NCBI GenBank assembly: GCA_021307315.1
Contig: JAJSPD010000065.1
Coordinates: forward strand, 186,001 to 250,000
DNA: 64,000 nt
Direction: 5' to 3'
From: Bisporella sp. PMI_857
Lineage: Eukaryota > Ascomycota > Leotiomycetes > Helotiales > Helotiaceae
Made by a program: the position numbers and the translations under genes. Shown piece by piece: positions 14,130-54,937 of this stretch. The notes under the pieces are model-generated. The model saw nothing but the letters and a program-made list of their open reading frames with translations, did not search any database and had not been told where the DNA came from. Numbering within the stretch: position 1 is the stretch's first letter; every line of letters starts with the position of its first letter.

Positions 14130-17100
14130 ATGGACTCCTCAGAAGAGAACCAGGTACATGATACAACTCCAGCACCCGCTATGCCATGGATGCGTTCTAG
14201 AGCTGACTGCTTTATATTTTAGTATGCGCGCCCTTCTCAATTGCGCCCTCCAAGTCGAATTCCATCGCCTGGAAAGGGCGGCCTCTCAGAAATCACCGAA
14301 TCGCAAGGCAACGCGCGCTCGAAACCTCCCTCCAAAATGCAGCCTCCAACTTCAGTGAAACATAAATTAAGTGCGCCATGTATGTTGAGTGGAATTATAT
14401 AGGAGCGCCAGTGCTGATTTTTCCCATAGACAACGAACCCGAACCAAAACGAAAAACGCTGGCGGAAAGGGCGGGAGAGCCTAGGTCCATGATCGTTCCT
14501 CCTGCCCAAACGTCGCGGCCGGTCATGAAGGGCACAACTCTGCTTAATGCAAGTGTAAGTCTCGATCTTTATTCGCATTCATACCCACGGCCGCATACCA
14601 GGACACGGCACGCCTGTCATTGGCGCTTTCTACTGCCTACATGCCTTGGAATATCCTTCAGAACAAACGGGAGCGGGAGAGTTTGGACTACCGCAAAATG
14701 GTGCTCAGTCGACTCGCAATGATTCATGTGAGTGGCAATTGACCTGGAAGTGCTTCACGCAGTTCATGTGATCCTCGTCTTGAATTGCCGACAAACCGGG
14801 AAAGGATCGCATAGGCTCCCATAACTCCAGGACCTTCGGCGAACCATATTGATGGTGTCTGTCCAGCTCTCTACGGCTAGTGGCTTCTTGTGTTCCCTCC
14901 GGCATGGAAACAGACCTGCGATGGTCGTCCCTGGCATTTCGTGCTTCATGGTAATCATGTTGGACTGTATGGGTTGCTGATATCCATCAAGTCAATGCTT
15001 TCTGTGGCGAAAGCTGCATTTATCTGAGCCTACCCACTTAATCTTCTACAGAATGCAATCATCTAGGATCAGGCCATTCGAACCTTTTGTAATAATTGTC
15101 ATGGCTCGATTTATGCTGACATGTTTTCAGAATATTGGCTCATCTGTATCTCGAAACACATCATTTTCTTCCTCAACATCGACACGACCATCACGAACTC
15201 CTTCGGTCTCATCTAGAAACACGTCCCATGGCAGTTTCTCTAGTAGTGTTGGTCCTGGAGGACGACCTGCTTCTGCCTATGGCCATCGGCCACAAACCTC
15301 CTTCAGCCAGTCCACAACTTCTCGGACTATAAATAAATCTCGGCCTAAAACATCAATGGATATGCACAATGAGGAAGATGAGCCCGTATCGGGGAGAAGA
15401 ATGGGTAGGATACCTTTACCTGCTGTCACTTATCCTTCCGTGACCCTTTCAAACAGAAAGTTGCGAGGTGCTCGATCAATATCCCAAGCGGGGATGGGTA
15501 ATACCTGGGAATTATCCCCTAGCTCAGCCATGAGTAAGCTGAAGCTGCGTGAGGAAGTATCTCCCGATCATACAAGAGCAAATCAAGCAAGCTCCGAAGC
15601 AATGAAACCCCTTTCCACTCCATCGTTCTCCCATGAAGCGTCCGCCAGTACTAGCTTGCGCGATTTGAGTATAAACAGCTGCAAGAATACTGTTGTACTG
15701 TGCGAGGCAATTGGAGATAGCTTAGTAGCTCCAAAAACGCCAGCCTCATCCATTCCGGTTCTGCGCAAGTCAAAGATGAAACTCGACGTAGCCAATGCTG
15801 CTCTGGTAACTCCTTGCAAGACTCCGAAATCTCCTTCCAAAAAAAATCAATTTTTATCAAAAGATTCTAACGTTACTTCTTTTACAGCTTGGGACGTAGA
15901 CAGCCGTCTCGGAAATGTTGAGGCAATGTTTGCCGACCTCCAACAGAAAGTCAACAGCAGTGGTCAAGAACGTGCTGGTCTTGAGGAGGCAGTTGGAATC
16001 TATAAATTAAAGAGTAGGCTTTGTTATAACACTCACGAAGTATGCTAACTCGATAACCAGTTGCACAGCTTGAGGCTATTGAGTCACAACTAAAGATGTC
16101 AAACCAAGATCTTCAAGGGAACTTGGAACTAATGAGACAGAAATCTAGGGCAATTGAGGAAAGGCTACTTAGTGCAACGACCTCACTTGATGATCAGCTA
16201 AGGGCTCACCGGATAGAAATGGATGATGCGAGAAGAGAATATCAGAATGAAATCACGCAACTACGCCGAGAATATGCTGATGAGACGGATCGAGTGCATA
16301 GGCTTCACCGCGATGAGGTGCGAGAACTTGAGCGGCGAAATAGTGGCGAGCTAGAAGACAGATTGAAAGATGTAGAGCGCCGTTATGAAAGCAAGCTTGA
16401 TGAAGAAAGAAGTCGACGACTCCGTGAAGTTCAAGAATTAGAGGCTCGTGTTGCATCTGAGAACCAGAACTTAGGTATGGCACTTCAAAAGAAGGATTTC
16501 GAAATTCAGAGCATGCGAGGGGAATTGGAGAGTCTTCGGGGAGAAGTTGATCGCCAGCAAACTTTGAAAGTCAATACACAAGCAAGCTTGTCGGAATTGA
16601 GGGAAACTCTTCAAAAGACGGGAACCCAGAATGCGTCTACCATACAATCGCTGGAGAGCGAGCTCTCTAGTCTTCGTGCCAAGATAGTTTTCCTTGAATC
16701 TGGGAGCAAAGCCCAGTCAGATAGCTATGCAGAGATGGAGGCTAGATTACAAGAAGCAATCCGGTCAGCCGAAACATCAAAACAGAAGCTTATTAAGGAA
16801 GAAACCCTTCGCAGGATTCTGTTCAACCAAGTCCAGGAACTCAAGGGAAACATCAGAGTGATGTGCAGAGTTCGGCCAATATTTGGAAACGTAGAGGGAG
16901 AGGCTGCAAAACTCACATACCCCGATGTTGACAAGGAGTCCAAAGAACTTGTCGTTCTTGGAAAGGAACAAAAGAGCAACCTGGGTACTGTCACCAGACA
17001 GACCAATCCTTTCACCTTTGATCGTGTATTTGGACCTGAAGCGACGAACCAAGAAGTCTTCGAAGAAATATCACAGCTTGTCCAAAGTGCTCTAGACGGC

Positions 17101-17991
17101 TATAACGTTTGCATCTTCTGTTATGGCCAGACCGGTGCCGGAAAAACGCATACCATGTCATCAGCAGATGGAATGATCCCGAGGGCAACACACCAGATAT
17201 ACGAGACTGCAACCAGCCTACAAGACAAGGGTTGGACTTACACAATGGAAGGTAGCTTTGTGGAGGTGTATAACGAAGAAATCCATGACCTTCTCGGTAG
17301 CTCGAAAGACTTTGACAAGAAGAAACATGAAATTCGTCATGACGAACAGAAGAAGCAGACAACTGTGACGGGATTGAAGACCGTTACTCTAGACTCCGCG
17401 AATGCCGTTGAATCAATACTAAAGCAGGCAGACGCGAACAGAAGTGTTGCTGCAACCAAATCAAACGAACGATCATCGCGATCTCATTCCGTGTTCATTC
17501 TCAAGCTGGTTGGACGCAATAGTGTCACGAATGAAACCTCCGAAGGAACCCTCAATTTGGTTGATCTGGCTGGTTCGGAGCGACTTAAGTCATCTGGAGC
17601 TGAAGGAGAACGAATGAAGGAGACGCAGAATATCAACAAGAGTCTGAGTTGCTTGGGAGATGTCATTGGAGCTCTAGGTCAGAACAAAGAGGGTGGTCAT
17701 ATTCCATACCGTAATTCCAAGGTATGTTCTTACTCAATCAGTTTGATATAGGGATCTAACATTGACTTAGTTAACCTATCTGCTGCAATACTCATTGGGA
17801 GGCAACTCAAAGACGCTCATGTTCGTGATGGCCAGCCCACTGGAAGCGCACCTGCAGGAAACGATAACGAGCTTAAAATTTGCGACAAAGGTATGTTTTA
17901 TCTCCTTATCCTTCTGTAAGACCCTAAATTAATATCTTAGGTCCATAATACACATATCGGCACAGCAAAAAAATCAACGAGAGTTCACTAG
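14130..17991 (+). CDS. klpA: kinesin-14 (C-terminal motor, KlpA/Kar3-like), 1006 aa, 7 exons
   Basis: Exons: 14130-14153, 14223-14379, 14430-14554, 15131-16013, 16061-17721, 17771-17890 and 17941-17991; they sum to 3021 nt. The order is an N-terminal Ser/Pro/Arg-rich microtubule-binding tail (to about residue 380), a coiled coil (about 390-650, dense E/R/Q/L heptads), the kinesin-14 neck and a C-terminal motor (from VMCRVRP, about residue 660). Motor motifs are intact: P-loop [10 protein letters not shown] near residue 751, switch [12 protein letters not shown] and switch [10 protein letters not shown]. The protein ends [17 protein letters not shown], a typical kinesin-14 terminus. Such motors walk to microtubule minus ends and act in spindle assembly and nuclear positioning, opposing kinesin-5. 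Intron 3 (14555-15130) is 576 nt, several times longer than any other intron in the window. Confidence 0.95.
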
Positions 17992-24638: not shown

Positions 24639-26141
24639 ATGTCTGCTAACCATAATGATCCAGATCTCAAGTACTCTGGTCAGCCCTCAGGTCCGTTGAC
24701 ATACGAACATAGGAACCCGGGGGGTAATTCTGGGATCGGATATAACCTATCCCAATCTTCGCTTCCCCTTAGAAATTATTTAAATGATGAGGAAACCCAT
24801 GCAATGGCCGTACAAACGTATTCATCTCTGAAGCCCCATGGAAGCACCAAGGAGAGGTTTTCTCGCAACAAAGATGCAATGGAAAATTCGTCTAGGCTAC
24901 GTTCTGAGTCCTTGCCACCGGAGAGAATAGAGCTGCCTTCTATCCGTAAGGTATGTCAACCTTCGAAGTACATCGAATAATCTTATAACTATTCTACAGC
25001 TCTTAGAAGAAGTAGAACCACCCAGTGTCCATCCTGGTAGTCAGCCTAGTAAGCTGGGCATAAGTCCACTGATCAAAAATGAACATCCCCCATCATCACC
25101 ACCATCTCACAAGCGCAGAAAGGTATTCGATGAGGACGAAAGTACTTTGGACACGGCGAGCTCGACGGAGCTTCTTACAAAAGTAGAACCGAACAGACTC
25201 AGCCCTTTAACATTTCGAAACACGCATACTTTAGAGTCATCACCGATACGACGAGCAAGTGTGTTATCTACAGGAGGATCGTATCCAGGAACTGCCACGA
25301 GTAGTCCTTTTTCTCGAGCATCAGTCATGCCTCAGACGCTGGCATCTCCCTCTTCCTTTGACTCAATGAATAGAGCAGAATGGAAGCCTAAGCTCCCCAA
25401 TCTCCCACCATTGTCATTTGTAGAACGAGGACCTCCACAAGGATCGCAGGTTCGCAATAGCTGGAGTGAGTTTGTGCTTGAATCTCGATCCGGCGCTCAC
25501 ACATTCCCTCAAACAGCCGTTTCTGCCTTCAATCCGCCAAATCCGTCTTACCAAGCTCCGCCTTATTCGTATGGATACCAACCACCACGCAATCAAATCC
25601 TCTCAGGGCCTACAACAGCGAGCCCCATGAAGCCTGAACGGAGTCCGTTCTCAGCCACGAGCTATCATGCGACAACCCCAGGGGTTGTAATTCCATATCC
25701 AGGGGAAACAAACGACAACGTGGTCGACAACAAGCAAAGAAAGCGGCGAGGAAATCTTCCCAAGGAAACAACAGACCAGCTCAGGTCCTGGTTTGTAACT
25801 CATATACAGCATCCTTACCCGACAGAGGATGAGAAACAGGAACTAATGCGAATCACTGGTTTGGCAATGAGTATGTAGATGGCTGCATAGATATGTCCAT
25901 TAGAATTCTTCTAATCTATGTCATAGATCAAATATCAAACTGGTTCATCAACGCACGTCGGCGACAGCTCCCTGCAATGATCAATAACGCAAGAGCAGAA
26001 TCAGACGCAAGGTCTTCTGGAGGTGGAGAGGCACGAAATAATGATTATCGTCTTAGTGACGAGGAGTATGAAGAGGACTACGATAGGGTGAGGGCAAAAC
26101 CCGGACCTGTGAGGGAGTTGGCGGAGAACAAAAGTATATGA
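24639..26141 (+). CDS. TALE-class homeobox transcription factor, 465 aa, 3 exons
   Basis: Exons: 24639-24950, 25000-25870 and 25927-26141; they sum to 1398 nt. The N-terminal 340 residues are Ser/Pro-rich and probably disordered, with a likely nuclear signal SHKRRKVFDED. The homeodomain starts near residue 349 (KQRKRRGNLPKETTDQL). Its helix 1-2 loop has the three-residue TALE extension with the hallmark PYP (HIQHPYPTEDEK). Helix 3 reads NWFINARRRQLP and is joined across intron 2. The acidic C-terminus (SDEEYEEDYDR) could be an activation patch. Fungal TALE factors of this kind (Cup9/Tos8/Hoy1-like) control development, conidiation or metal and stress responses; the exact ortholog is not determined. 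The very long upstream stretch without genes suggests complex control. No damage is seen. Confidence 0.92.
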
Positions 26142-51938: not shown

Positions 51939-52086
51939 AGTTGCATGGTCTAATGGTGTAAGTACATATCTACCAGAATATGGTCGGTTGCATGGATTAC
52001 TGACAATACTGTTATAGTATGATATCTCGTTCACAGTTGTTGAACTCTTTCCGAGATGGTTCTGAGTTCGATCCTCAGTGCAACTA
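51939..52086 (+). tRNA. tRNA-Val(CAC) with a normal intron and a second D-loop insertion
   Basis: With two insertions removed (51958-52017 and 52036-52050), 73 nt fold as a tRNA. The acceptor is AGTTGCA/TGCAACT (7 bp) with discriminator A. The D arm is GTCT-AATGGTTA-TGAT with T13-T22 unpaired, as I recall for yeast tRNA-Val. The anticodon stem is TCTCG/CGAGA and the loop TTCACAC gives anticodon CAC at 52032-52034. The variable loop is TGGTT and the T arm is CTGAG-TTCGATC-CTCAG. The 15-nt insertion sits after position 37, the standard eukaryotic intron site, and can pair with the anticodon side (GTTCA/TGAAC). The 60-nt insertion follows T20 in the D-loop. The A-box before it and the B-box are complete. 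It reads valine GTG codons if processed. Confidence 0.82.
51958..52017 (+). other. 60-nt spliceosomal-intron-like insertion in the tRNA-Val D-loop
   Basis: The insertion begins GTAAGT (a perfect 5' splice site) and ends TTATAG. TACTGAC at 51998-52004 puts a branch A 14 nt before the end, matching fungal spliceosomal introns seen elsewhere in this window. It carries a second copy of the tRNA 5'-end nonamer GTTGCATGG (51987-51995; original at 51940-51948) and a small ACCA/TGGT hairpin. Removing it exactly restores the D-arm. I see no obvious bulge-helix-bulge for the tRNA endonuclease, though I could not fold it by program. Confidence 0.75.
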
Positions 52087-52088
52087 AA

Positions 52089-52116
52089 TTTTTTCCAATT
52101 TTTTCAATTTTTTTTT
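52089..52116 (+). terminator. RNA polymerase III terminators after tRNA-Val
   Basis: Three T-runs of six, six and nine residues begin 3 nt past the discriminator base. This strong terminator array supports Pol III transcription of the interrupted tRNA gene. Confidence 0.85.
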
Positions 52117-52772: not shown

Positions 52773-54937
52773 ATGGCAGGCCGCTTCGTGCGCGCGTCGA
52801 AATACCGTAAGCCAGCCTCGTCACCCTCGAAAGACACACGATCAAGCTAACAATGTGCAAGGACACGTCTTTGGCAAGTCCACCAAGAAAGAATCATGCT
52901 ATGATAACTTGCACATCAGTCGCAATGCGTGGGACACAAATTTGGTCAAGGTATACAACGTGGATAAACCCTGATGGCATTGCAAGAGCTGATGGTTATT
53001 CCAGGCCAACCCAGAATATATTTCCGTGAATTGGGAGTCTGGTGGAGGAGGCGCATTTGCAGTGATACCGGTCAATGAGAAAGGACGGTTGCCTGAGCAG
53101 ATTCCCCTCTTCAGAGGCCACACATCTGCCGTGCTGGATACGGATTGGTAGGTGAGAGGGACTATAACCGAAGGTATTTGGCTGATACTCAACTAGGAAC
53201 CCATTCAACGACCGCATTATAGCCTCTGCATCTGACGATGGGAAGATCTTTATATGGGAAGTGCCGCAAGGCTTTTCTCTGTATAGTGACGCCGAGGAGC
53301 CTAACGATGTTTCGCCGGTTAGCAGGTTGGCTGGCCATTCGAGGTAGGCGCCAGAATTTAATGAACACATAAGTAGAGTCTGACAATATACAGGAAAGCT
53401 GGACACGTCCTTTTTAACCCTGCTGCCGAGAACATTCTGGCCTCCGCCTCCGGTGACTTCACAATTAAGCTCTGGGATATTGGGACAGGAAAATCGCACC
53501 TCACCCTAAAGCACAAGGACACCATACAAAGCTTATCTTGGAATGCCAACGGAACCTGCCTGGCTACCACTTCTCGGGACAAGGTCATACGTATATGGGA
53601 TGTTCGTCAAGAAAGGGCTGCGCATGAGGTTGCTGGGCATACTGGAGCAAAAGCTAGTAGAGTCGTTTGGATGGGAGAACATGATCGTTTAGCCACCACT
53701 GGCTTTTCTAAGATGAGCGACCGTCAATTAGCATTGTGGGATGCCGGTAGCCCGTCACAACCGATTGGGGGATTTACGACACTGGACTCTATATCTGGTG
53801 TTTGCATGCCGTTCTGGGGTTGGTTTATATACTCTACTCCAGTCTAGAGCTTGACTGACTTGAAATAGATGATGGGACTCAGATGTTATATCTAGCAGGC
53901 AAAGGGTAAGCTTCTTCTGAATCACTAGATAACTTAGGCTAATTGACAAGTGATGGAAACATTCGATACTTTGAATACGAAAACGACAAGTTTGAGTTCT
54001 TGTCTGAGTATAAGTCAGGAGATCCACAGAGAGGTCTTGCATTCGTCCCAAGACGCGGCATCAATGTGAGGGGCTCGATCTTAGAGCGTTGTGAAATGCT
54101 AATCCGTTGTAGGTCCACGAGAATGAGGTCATGAAAGCTTACAAGACCGTAAACGACAGTTATATCGAACCGATTTCGTTCACTGTCCCAAGAAGAGCAG
54201 AGGTATTCCAATCAGATATTTACCCGCCAGCCACTGGAACAAAGCCAGCAGTTTCAGCTGCGGAATGGCTATCTGGCAAGGATGGCGTTCCTTCTAAGAT
54301 CGATCTTGAGAGCATTTATGAAGGAAATGCTCCAGTCGAAGTACCATCAGGTTATAAACCGCCAACCCCAGCATCAGCTCCAACGCCCGCCAAGGCTTCT
54401 TCTCCAGTAAAGAAAGAGCCAGAACCTACACCGGTCCAAAGAGCACCACCGCCGTCCATCTCCGAGCAGAAGGGCTCAATTGCAGCTATGGCCTCCAAAT
54501 TCCAGGATGATGAAGAAGCCAACTCTGATGATGATGCATCTTCGTTTGAAGAGATTTCAAGACCAGCGCAACGCACTGCCCCTGTTGCCCCAAAAGCCGA
54601 TCCGAAGCCTGTCTCACCCATCAAGACTTCTCCTACCAAGGTCTCACCTCCAAAAGCTTCGCCAGGATCACAACCCACTCCTGCCTCTAGACAGAACGTT
54701 ACGTCTCCTGTAGCCACGTCAACTCCTGGTGTCTCTTCCTCGAGCAACGGATCCGTTGAGAGCTCTCTCGAGCAGATCAAGAGCCTTTTAGAGGCGCAGA
54801 CCAAGACGATTACGGCACAGAGCGAGAAGATCAGCAAGCTCGCTCAGGAGGTCGATAGTTTGAAGTCAAAAGTCAATGCAGATGCAGAGAAGAAGGTGAG
54901 AGAACTAGAACTGAAGCTTGAGGCCTATGAGTCTTAG
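52773..54937 (+). CDS. crn1: coronin (actin-binding WD40 protein), 604 aa, 8 exons
   Basis: Exons: 52773-52806, 52862-52950, 53005-53147, 53197-53343, 53394-53818, 53869-53905, 53951-54065 and 54113-54937; total 1815 nt with phases matching. The start MAGRFVRASKYRHVFG is the coronin signature. A beta-propeller of WD repeats follows (WDTNLVKANPEYISVNWESG, GHTSAVLDTDWNPF, ASASGDFTIKLWD, TSRDKVIRIWDVR, DRQLALWD). The conserved coronin extension (SFTVPRRAEVFQSDIYPP) comes after. A Pro/Ser/Lys-rich linker of about 200 residues leads to a C-terminal coiled coil (from SLEQIKSLLEAQTKTI) for oligomerisation and Arp2/3 contact. Coronin bundles actin and regulates Arp2/3 at cortical patches. The gene looks complete. 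Confidence 0.96.

Follow-up and report, generated by a model that had tools for sequence, protein, structure and literature searches.

Putative spliceosomal introns in nuclear tRNA genes of the fungus Bisporella sp. PMI_857

In the taught view of eukaryotes, spliceosomal introns belong for the most part to Pol II transcripts, and the short introns found between positions 37 and 38 of tRNAs are left to a protein endonuclease. A tRNA-Val(CAC) gene of Bisporella sp. PMI_857 raises the question of whether this division always holds: it is interrupted twice, once at the 37/38 site and once in the D loop, by an insert that looks like an mRNA intron. The gene lies at 51939-52086 of a stretch of 64,000 nucleotides, referred to here as the window, which is located on contig C247 of a 55.6-Mb assembly of 284 contigs. 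An earlier note, made from the letters of the window, had hesitated between a spliceosomal intron and an insertion into a defunct tRNA gene. The first of these is favoured by our analysis on the strength of 11 further complete genes of the same kind, insert-free paralogues and introns in U6 genes, and the window gene thus appears as a member of a class and not as the lone case that had been described. We estimate at about 0.86 the probability that the D-loop insert is a U2-type spliceosomal intron in a functional nuclear tRNA-Val(CAC) gene that belongs to a group of 12 or more.

The tRNA-Val(CAC) gene of the window

Taking out 51958-52017 and 52036-52050 leaves a tRNA-Val(CAC) of 73 nt, assembled from exons of 19, 18 and 36 nt. 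The features of the gene are the following, all on the forward strand:

51939..51957 (+), exon 1 of tRNA-Val(CAC): 5' acceptor strand, A box, D stem and D loop to position 20
51946..51956 (+), A box TGGTCTAATGG, read from the sequence
51958..52017 (+), spliceosomal-type intron of 60 nt at D-loop position 20/21, GTAAGT...TAG (sequence, ARAGORN, cloverleaf)
51958..51963 (+), 5' splice site GTAAGT (sequence)
51998..52004 (+), branch-site-like TACTGAC, with the branch A at 52003, 14 nt from the intron end (sequence)
52015..52017 (+), 3' splice site TAG (sequence)
52018..52035 (+), exon 2: remaining D arm, 5' anticodon stem, anticodon CAC and position 37 (ARAGORN, cloverleaf)
52036..52050 (+), canonical 37/38 intron of 15 nt, GTTGTT...TTT, not GT-AG (ARAGORN, sequence)
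52051..52086 (+), exon 3: 3' anticodon stem, variable loop, T arm, 3' acceptor strand and discriminator A (ARAGORN, cloverleaf)
52066..52074 (+), B box GTTCGATCC, read from the sequence
52089..52116 (+), three T-runs, Pol III-type terminators, the first beginning 3 nt past the discriminator (sequence)

After splicing, the acceptor (7/7), anticodon (5/5) and T (5/5) stems are completely paired, as the earlier note had described, and its reading of the splice signals, of the discriminator A and of the terminators was likewise found to be accurate. The D stem consists of three pairs and a T-T at 13-22, by eye like that of the Asp genes of the same genome. The 60-nt insert lies outside the canonical 37/38 site and the 15-nt insert within it. 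What we take to be the A box (51946-51956) and the B box (52066-52074) were assigned on presumed consensus sequences; since the larger insert starts downstream of the A box, the latter is intact. The acceptor stem opens with an A-U pair, which is unusual in elongator tRNAs and which we count against our reading.

ARAGORN returned tRNA-Val(CAC) once the 60-nt D-loop segment had been removed, whether the 15-nt intron was kept or not. Applied to the unedited 221 nt with anticodon-loop introns allowed, the program proposed an anomalous Glu(TTC) tRNA containing an intron of 75 nt; at its bacterial default, it reported no tRNA anywhere in the window and overlooked even the Ser gene at 1203-1303. This tRNA-Ser(GCT) gene (minus strand) has an ordinary 37/38 intron and a 95% similar second copy at C79:595593. 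The window gene was also missed by Rfam RF00005, both at the gathering threshold and when 221 bases were scanned permissively. As the Rfam non-report and the ARAGORN misreading demonstrate, tRNA finders can miss such genes, and the phenomenon may therefore be overlooked in other genomes.

A search of the genome for a second copy of the window gene, at up to 3 mismatches over 34 nt of the 3' exon, found none. The 221-nt stretch containing the intron matched only itself in the genome, and no dispersed copies of the insert were found. At C57:681374 lies a further Val(CAC) gene (L014; labelled Lys by ARAGORN and read manually as Val), which has a 37/38 intron of 6 nt and no GT-AG insert, so the window gene could be dispensable. 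The earlier note had counted other intact Val(CAC) genes towards a pseudogene; the existence of L014 bears this concern out in part.

Structure alone does not set the intron boundaries in the window gene: 27 different removals of 40-70 nt restore the cloverleaf, exactly one of which is GT..AG. When the T arm and the 3' acceptor strand were held fixed and the upstream part was shuffled, a full cloverleaf was recovered in none of 15,000 Markov-shuffled sequences, with none or one GT-AG segment removed. The splice signals are a different matter: the window contains 53 GT-AG segments bearing a branch-like motif, compared with 24-41 for ten shuffled versions and 40 for the reversed control. Such segments being common by chance, the signals of a single 60-nt insert prove little, and the rest of the genome was therefore searched.

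Twelve interrupted tRNA genes and their sixteen introns

Genome searches were run with sequence patterns, with the Rfam tRNA model and with known genes as queries. An A-box pattern combined with GTANGT gave 6 matches (control 2), the window gene being the sole tRNA among them, and with GTAWGT 11 matches (control 7), two of which were tRNAs, namely the window gene and an Ala(CGC). The T-arm pattern GTYNNNGGTTCRANNCC matched 37 places (reversed control 57) and the T-arm pattern GTYNNNAGTTCRANNCT 38 places (control 70). Examination of all these places revealed 18 tRNA genes for the former, 6 of them with GT-AG introns outside 37/38, and 9 for the latter, 5 of them with such introns, including the window gene. 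Together, the two patterns yielded 27 tRNA genes by manual reading, 11 of which are interrupted (10 of 26 if the window gene is left out). Because the T-arm patterns match fewer places than their reversed controls, the identification as tRNA rests on structure and not on the pattern.

The pattern GTYNNNYGTTCRANNCR matched 74 places (control 134), and none of the eight examined (six read and two known Trp) has such an intron. A Pro anticodon-arm pattern gave 27 matches (control 13); the 23 that were examined (20 read and three known) added Pro(AGG)-2, with GT-AG introns, Pro(AGG)-1 (L151), with a 37/38 intron only, and the truncated Pro(TGG) L153 described below. The Rfam tRNA search, which is biased towards intact genes, scored 63 of 2170 candidates and returned 49 matches, all of which were fetched; the only interrupted ones were Pro(TGG)-1 (L072) and Lys(TTT)-2 (L074). 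No new interrupted gene appeared among the 40 of 71 candidates scored in a whole-genome search with joined tRNA genes as queries. Eleven of the 12 interrupted genes, all except the window gene, were found by searches that required no splice signal. The counts of interrupted genes are lower bounds, and copies with other T or anticodon arms could have escaped the patterns.

A D-arm pattern matched ten places in the genome (by eye five Asp, three Gly-like and two other, eight of them tRNA-like), with GT-AG introns in none. At three Gly(TCC)-like loci (L063, C252:1059517; L064, C256:104862; L056/L075, C230:974203), the acceptor strands beside the T arm are incompletely paired by eye, and one of these loci carries 27 additional nucleotides as well as a D-arm motif that is repeated. 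GT-AG introns were considered as the cause of these faulty acceptor stems and do not explain them.

In total, 12 complete tRNA genes on 11 different contigs carry 16 introns outside the 37/38 site. Their positions are given below as the number of mature-tRNA nucleotides that precede the intron:

Val(CAC), window: after 19
Ala(CGC)-1, C217: after 19
Ala(CGC)-2, C2: after 20
Pro(TGG)-1, C219: after 45
Pro(TGG)-2, C1: after 45
Ile(TAT), C1: after 13
Pro(CGG), C254: after 10 and 19
Asn(GTT)-2, C35: after 26
Val(TAC), C167: after 10
Lys(TTT)-2, C213: after 9
Pro(AGG)-2 (L150/L166), C200:27837-28209: after 9, 21 and 48, with introns of 54, 175 and 55 nt in addition to a 37/38 intron
Asn(GTT)-3, C208: after 16 and 25

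All 16 introns, that of the window gene included, are GT..AG, the exon ends having been placed by eye with GT-AG in mind and 9 of the 16 being able to slide by 1-3 positions with the mature sequence unchanged. The 5' sites are GTAAGT (8), GTAAGA (3), GTGAGT (2), GTAAGC (1), GTACGA (1) and GTACGC (1), the last two of which are weak and count against our reading, and the 3' ends are TAG (8), CAG (6) and AAG (2). Intron length is 48-60 nt in 15 cases and 175 nt in one. A strict CTRAY stands 10-14 nt from the intron end in 13 of the 16, and the other three, which have the near forms CTAAA, GTAAC and TTAAC, count against our reading. From composition, the branch motif would be expected by chance in about 4% of cases and all signals jointly in about 1 in 10,000.

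The spliced genes are 72-74 nt long and ARAGORN names all 12. Acceptor (7/7) and T (5/5) stems are complete in every one, the anticodon stem is likewise complete (5/5) in all but Val(TAC) and Ile(TAT), which have 4/5, and a T-run is found at most 25 nt downstream of each gene. Internal exons are as short as 9 nt in Pro(CGG) and Asn(GTT)-3. The third intron of Pro(AGG)-2 sits in the T-stem region. Six of the 16 introns fall inside what we presume to be the limits of the A box (in Lys(TTT)-2, Pro(AGG)-2, Pro(CGG), Val(TAC), Ile(TAT) and Asn(GTT)-3), another point against our reading. In some of these genes, the GTAAG of the 5' splice site, at A-box positions 11-15, may stand in for part of the A box. 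The removals of a segment permitted by structure number 2 for Ile(TAT) and 3 for Val(TAC), one being GT..AG in each, and 38 and 7 for the two Ala(CGC) genes, with two GT..AG in each. Our strict cloverleaf script, with strict D-arm rules, recognised 4 of 8 genes and was positive for none of 1,200 shuffles; with looser rules it recognised 5 of 7 and failed on Asn-2 and Lys-2.

Comparison of paralogues adds a second kind of evidence. Freed of its insert, Lys(TTT)-2 on C213 is identical letter for letter to Lys(TTT) L030, and the mature sequence of Asn(GTT)-2 on C35 is identical to that of Asn(GTT)-1 (L070), which has no such insert. Between the two complete Pro(TGG) genes, the exons are identical and the introns mostly different: the latter agree in 38 columns, little above the mean of 33.6 obtained with shuffled sequences and below the shuffled maximum of 40. 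A third Pro(TGG), L153, has an identical exon 1 and its contig ends just past GTAAG. Between the two Ala(CGC) genes there are 9 exon differences, all in the acceptor and anticodon stems (own numbering), and both genes keep 7, 5 and 5 pairs. Identical-exon paralogues without the insert, divergent introns and conserved stems together argue that the inserts are probably removed.

All recognised Pro(TGG) and Pro(CGG) genes, four including the truncated L153, are interrupted. The codon CCG is not known to be read by anticodons other than those with U34 or C34. In the window, three long frames running from stop to stop contain 104 Pro codons, 23 of which are CCG. One further locus, L049 (C24:174375-174460, minus strand), is labelled an unbroken Pro(CGG) by ARAGORN; its first acceptor pair is non-standard and manual reading gives the anticodon CCT. 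It was rejected and not counted as Pro(CGG) because the Rfam alignment, which puts the anticodon stem around a long loop, and the manual reading agree on that stem and on a long loop insertion.

Other introns of the genome and alternative explanations

The earlier note had drawn a parallel with the introns of fungal U6 genes, and the same genome proved to contain it. Three of the five U6 matches (L078, C124:560638; L079, C1:676873; L080, C213:221911) have identical cores and different GT-AG introns of 53-58 nt after GGTCAATTT, with the same splice signals as the tRNA introns; L076 and L077 are intronless and look diverged. A Pol III-type small RNA of this genome therefore carries mRNA-type introns. 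For comparison with protein-coding genes, three introns of the window are available:

17722-17770, 25871-25926 and 53148-53196, mRNA introns accepted by protein continuity

These are 3 of 18 translated candidates. Selection by coding score alone left three weak mRNA-intron candidates, and the motif scan hardly exceeded its controls (53 versus 24-41 and 40), so that only introns established by protein continuity were used. Their host genes are presumably kinesin-14, homeodomain and coronin-like genes, names that are partly assumed on our side. The best match of the kinesin fragment 16057-17751 among solved structures is Kar3, in keeping with a fungal genome. The three mRNA introns measure 49-56 nt with 11-12 nt from branch to end, compared with 48-60 nt (15 of 16) and 10-14 nt in the tRNA introns. 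Their 5' sites are GTATGT or GTAGGT and never GTAAGT, which in this sample of three counts against our reading.

The nature of the inserts also has to be considered in relation to the endonuclease. Canonical 37/38 introns occur in 8 of the 12 interrupted genes, the window gene included. Nine 37/38 introns were checked, eight in interrupted genes and one in the insert-free Asn paralogue, and none is GT..AG. The strict archaeal central helix (4 bp, intron nucleotides 2-5 with exon nucleotides 2-5, in what we take to be the proper register) is complete in none of the 16 GT-AG introns, and in none of the nine canonical introns used as control; the test concerns this strict archaeal form only. As canonical 37/38 introns fail it too, an incomplete helix would still be compatible with cutting by a eukaryotic endonuclease. 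The test does not separate canonical introns. The case for the spliceosome rests on GT..AG and branch signals.

One alternative is that we are dealing with ectopic introns like those of archaea or red algae, which the endonuclease would cut, with GT..AG arising by coincidence. Ectopic tRNA introns, in the D loop and elsewhere, are known in Cyanidioschyzon merolae and archaea; for the Guillardia theta nucleomorph, many are said to form no defined bulge-helix-bulge (PMC3978253 and PMC4090602, excerpts). The failure of the canonical introns in the helix test (0 of 9) also speaks for this alternative. The constancy of GT..AG among the 16 inserts, the strict branch sites of 13 of them, the lack of GT..AG in the nine 37/38 introns and the lack of a strict helix in any insert make this reading very unlikely. 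That the window gene is a pseudogene with a captured spliceosomal-type insert, while other members of the class may work, would fit the lack of a close paralogue in the genome, the presence of the Val(CAC) gene L014 and the A-U first pair. Against it, 17 of 17 acceptor, anticodon and T pairs are intact, the B box, the terminators and a separate 37/38 intron have been kept, and eleven other genes are in the same state; we regard a pseudogene as unlikely.

Recent spread of the introns by a mobile element (introner) concerns their origin and would be compatible with spliceosomal introns in functional tRNA genes. Presence or absence of the insert between identical-exon paralogues (Lys, Asn) testifies to recent gain or loss, and one of the 45 pairs formed by the first ten of the 16 introns, to which the similarity comparison was confined, stands above shuffles (Ala(CGC)-2 with Val(TAC), z 4.7; next 3.3). 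The shared branch site inflates such similarity scores, however, and the 221-nt window stretch matches itself only, so spread of this sort seems rather improbable. As for an assembly artefact or tRNA-derived repeats, nothing was found in their favour, and 12 genes over 11 contigs with differing introns and like architecture render them scarcely credible.

Proposed processing and relation to known systems

Under the spliceosomal reading, Pol III would transcribe the window gene and the spliceosome would take out the D-loop intron in the nucleus, thereby restoring the D arm. The tRNA-splicing endonuclease and a ligase would then remove the separate 37/38 intron, and after trimming of the ends the tRNA would be functional. 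We place the spliceosome before the endonuclease because the Sen54 subunit of the latter is reported to contact the D arm (PMC4090602, excerpt). The introns most likely originated when introns were reverse-spliced into small RNAs that were then copied back into DNA, a route that has been suggested for U6 introns (PMC10484740, excerpt).

On balance, we also lean towards a wider proposition, in which the spliceosome would be an essential tRNA-processing machine in this fungus. A large share of the nuclear tRNA genes would then carry mRNA-type introns, at many positions and up to three per gene, beside the endonuclease-type intron, and some codons, Pro CCG above all, would depend wholly on such tRNAs. 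If the introns are removed as their signals say, two splicing systems meet in one precursor, and do so in many genes. The spliceosome would have to cope with Pol III transcripts that are very short, structured and uncapped and whose internal exons can measure 9 nt; this could be tested, as could the order of the two splicing systems and the gain of introns in non-coding RNA genes.

No title or abstract among the matches listed reports spliceosomal introns in nuclear tRNA genes, in a body of literature that leaves aside most subscription papers and all of bioRxiv. The kind of intron is already known, since mRNA-type introns occur in small structured RNAs (U6, U3); what is new is the tRNA host, for which we found no precedent. 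The canonical eukaryotic 37/38 introns are short, have a fixed position, are GT..AG in none of the nine checked here and belong to a separate splicing system, and they coexist with the GT-AG introns in eight interrupted genes. Ribosomal RNA is a Pol I product. Spliceosomal introns are named in fungal nuclear rDNA (PMC11782384, excerpt), and these resemble the present ones in being spliceosomal and in interrupting a structural RNA gene, although rRNA is long, unlike tRNA.

In Cyanidioschyzon merolae and Crenarchaeota, ectopic or multiple tRNA introns occupy the D arm, the variable arm and other sites (PMC3978253 and PMC4090602, excerpts). Several introns per gene, in the D arm and elsewhere, are thus common to those genes and to ours, but according to these excerpts their introns form a bulge-helix-bulge and are cut by the endonuclease, whereas the full helix is found in none of our 16 and all of ours are GT..AG. 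According to a 2017 paper, no small structured RNAs other than U3 and U6 were known until then to contain introns often (PMC5832005, excerpt). The U3 snoRNA introns of fungi are likewise spliceosomal and lie in a small structured RNA, the difference being the tRNA host, which the excerpt of PMC5832005 does not name as interrupted. The U6 snRNA genes of fission yeast have mRNA-type introns (Tani and Ohshima 1989, cited in PMC10484740, excerpt). Fungal U6 introns, those in the three U6 copies found here included, are alike in being mRNA-type introns in a small structured Pol III RNA; in contrast to them, the introns described here reside in tRNA, interrupt many genes at many positions, number up to three per gene and stand alongside an endonuclease-type intron.
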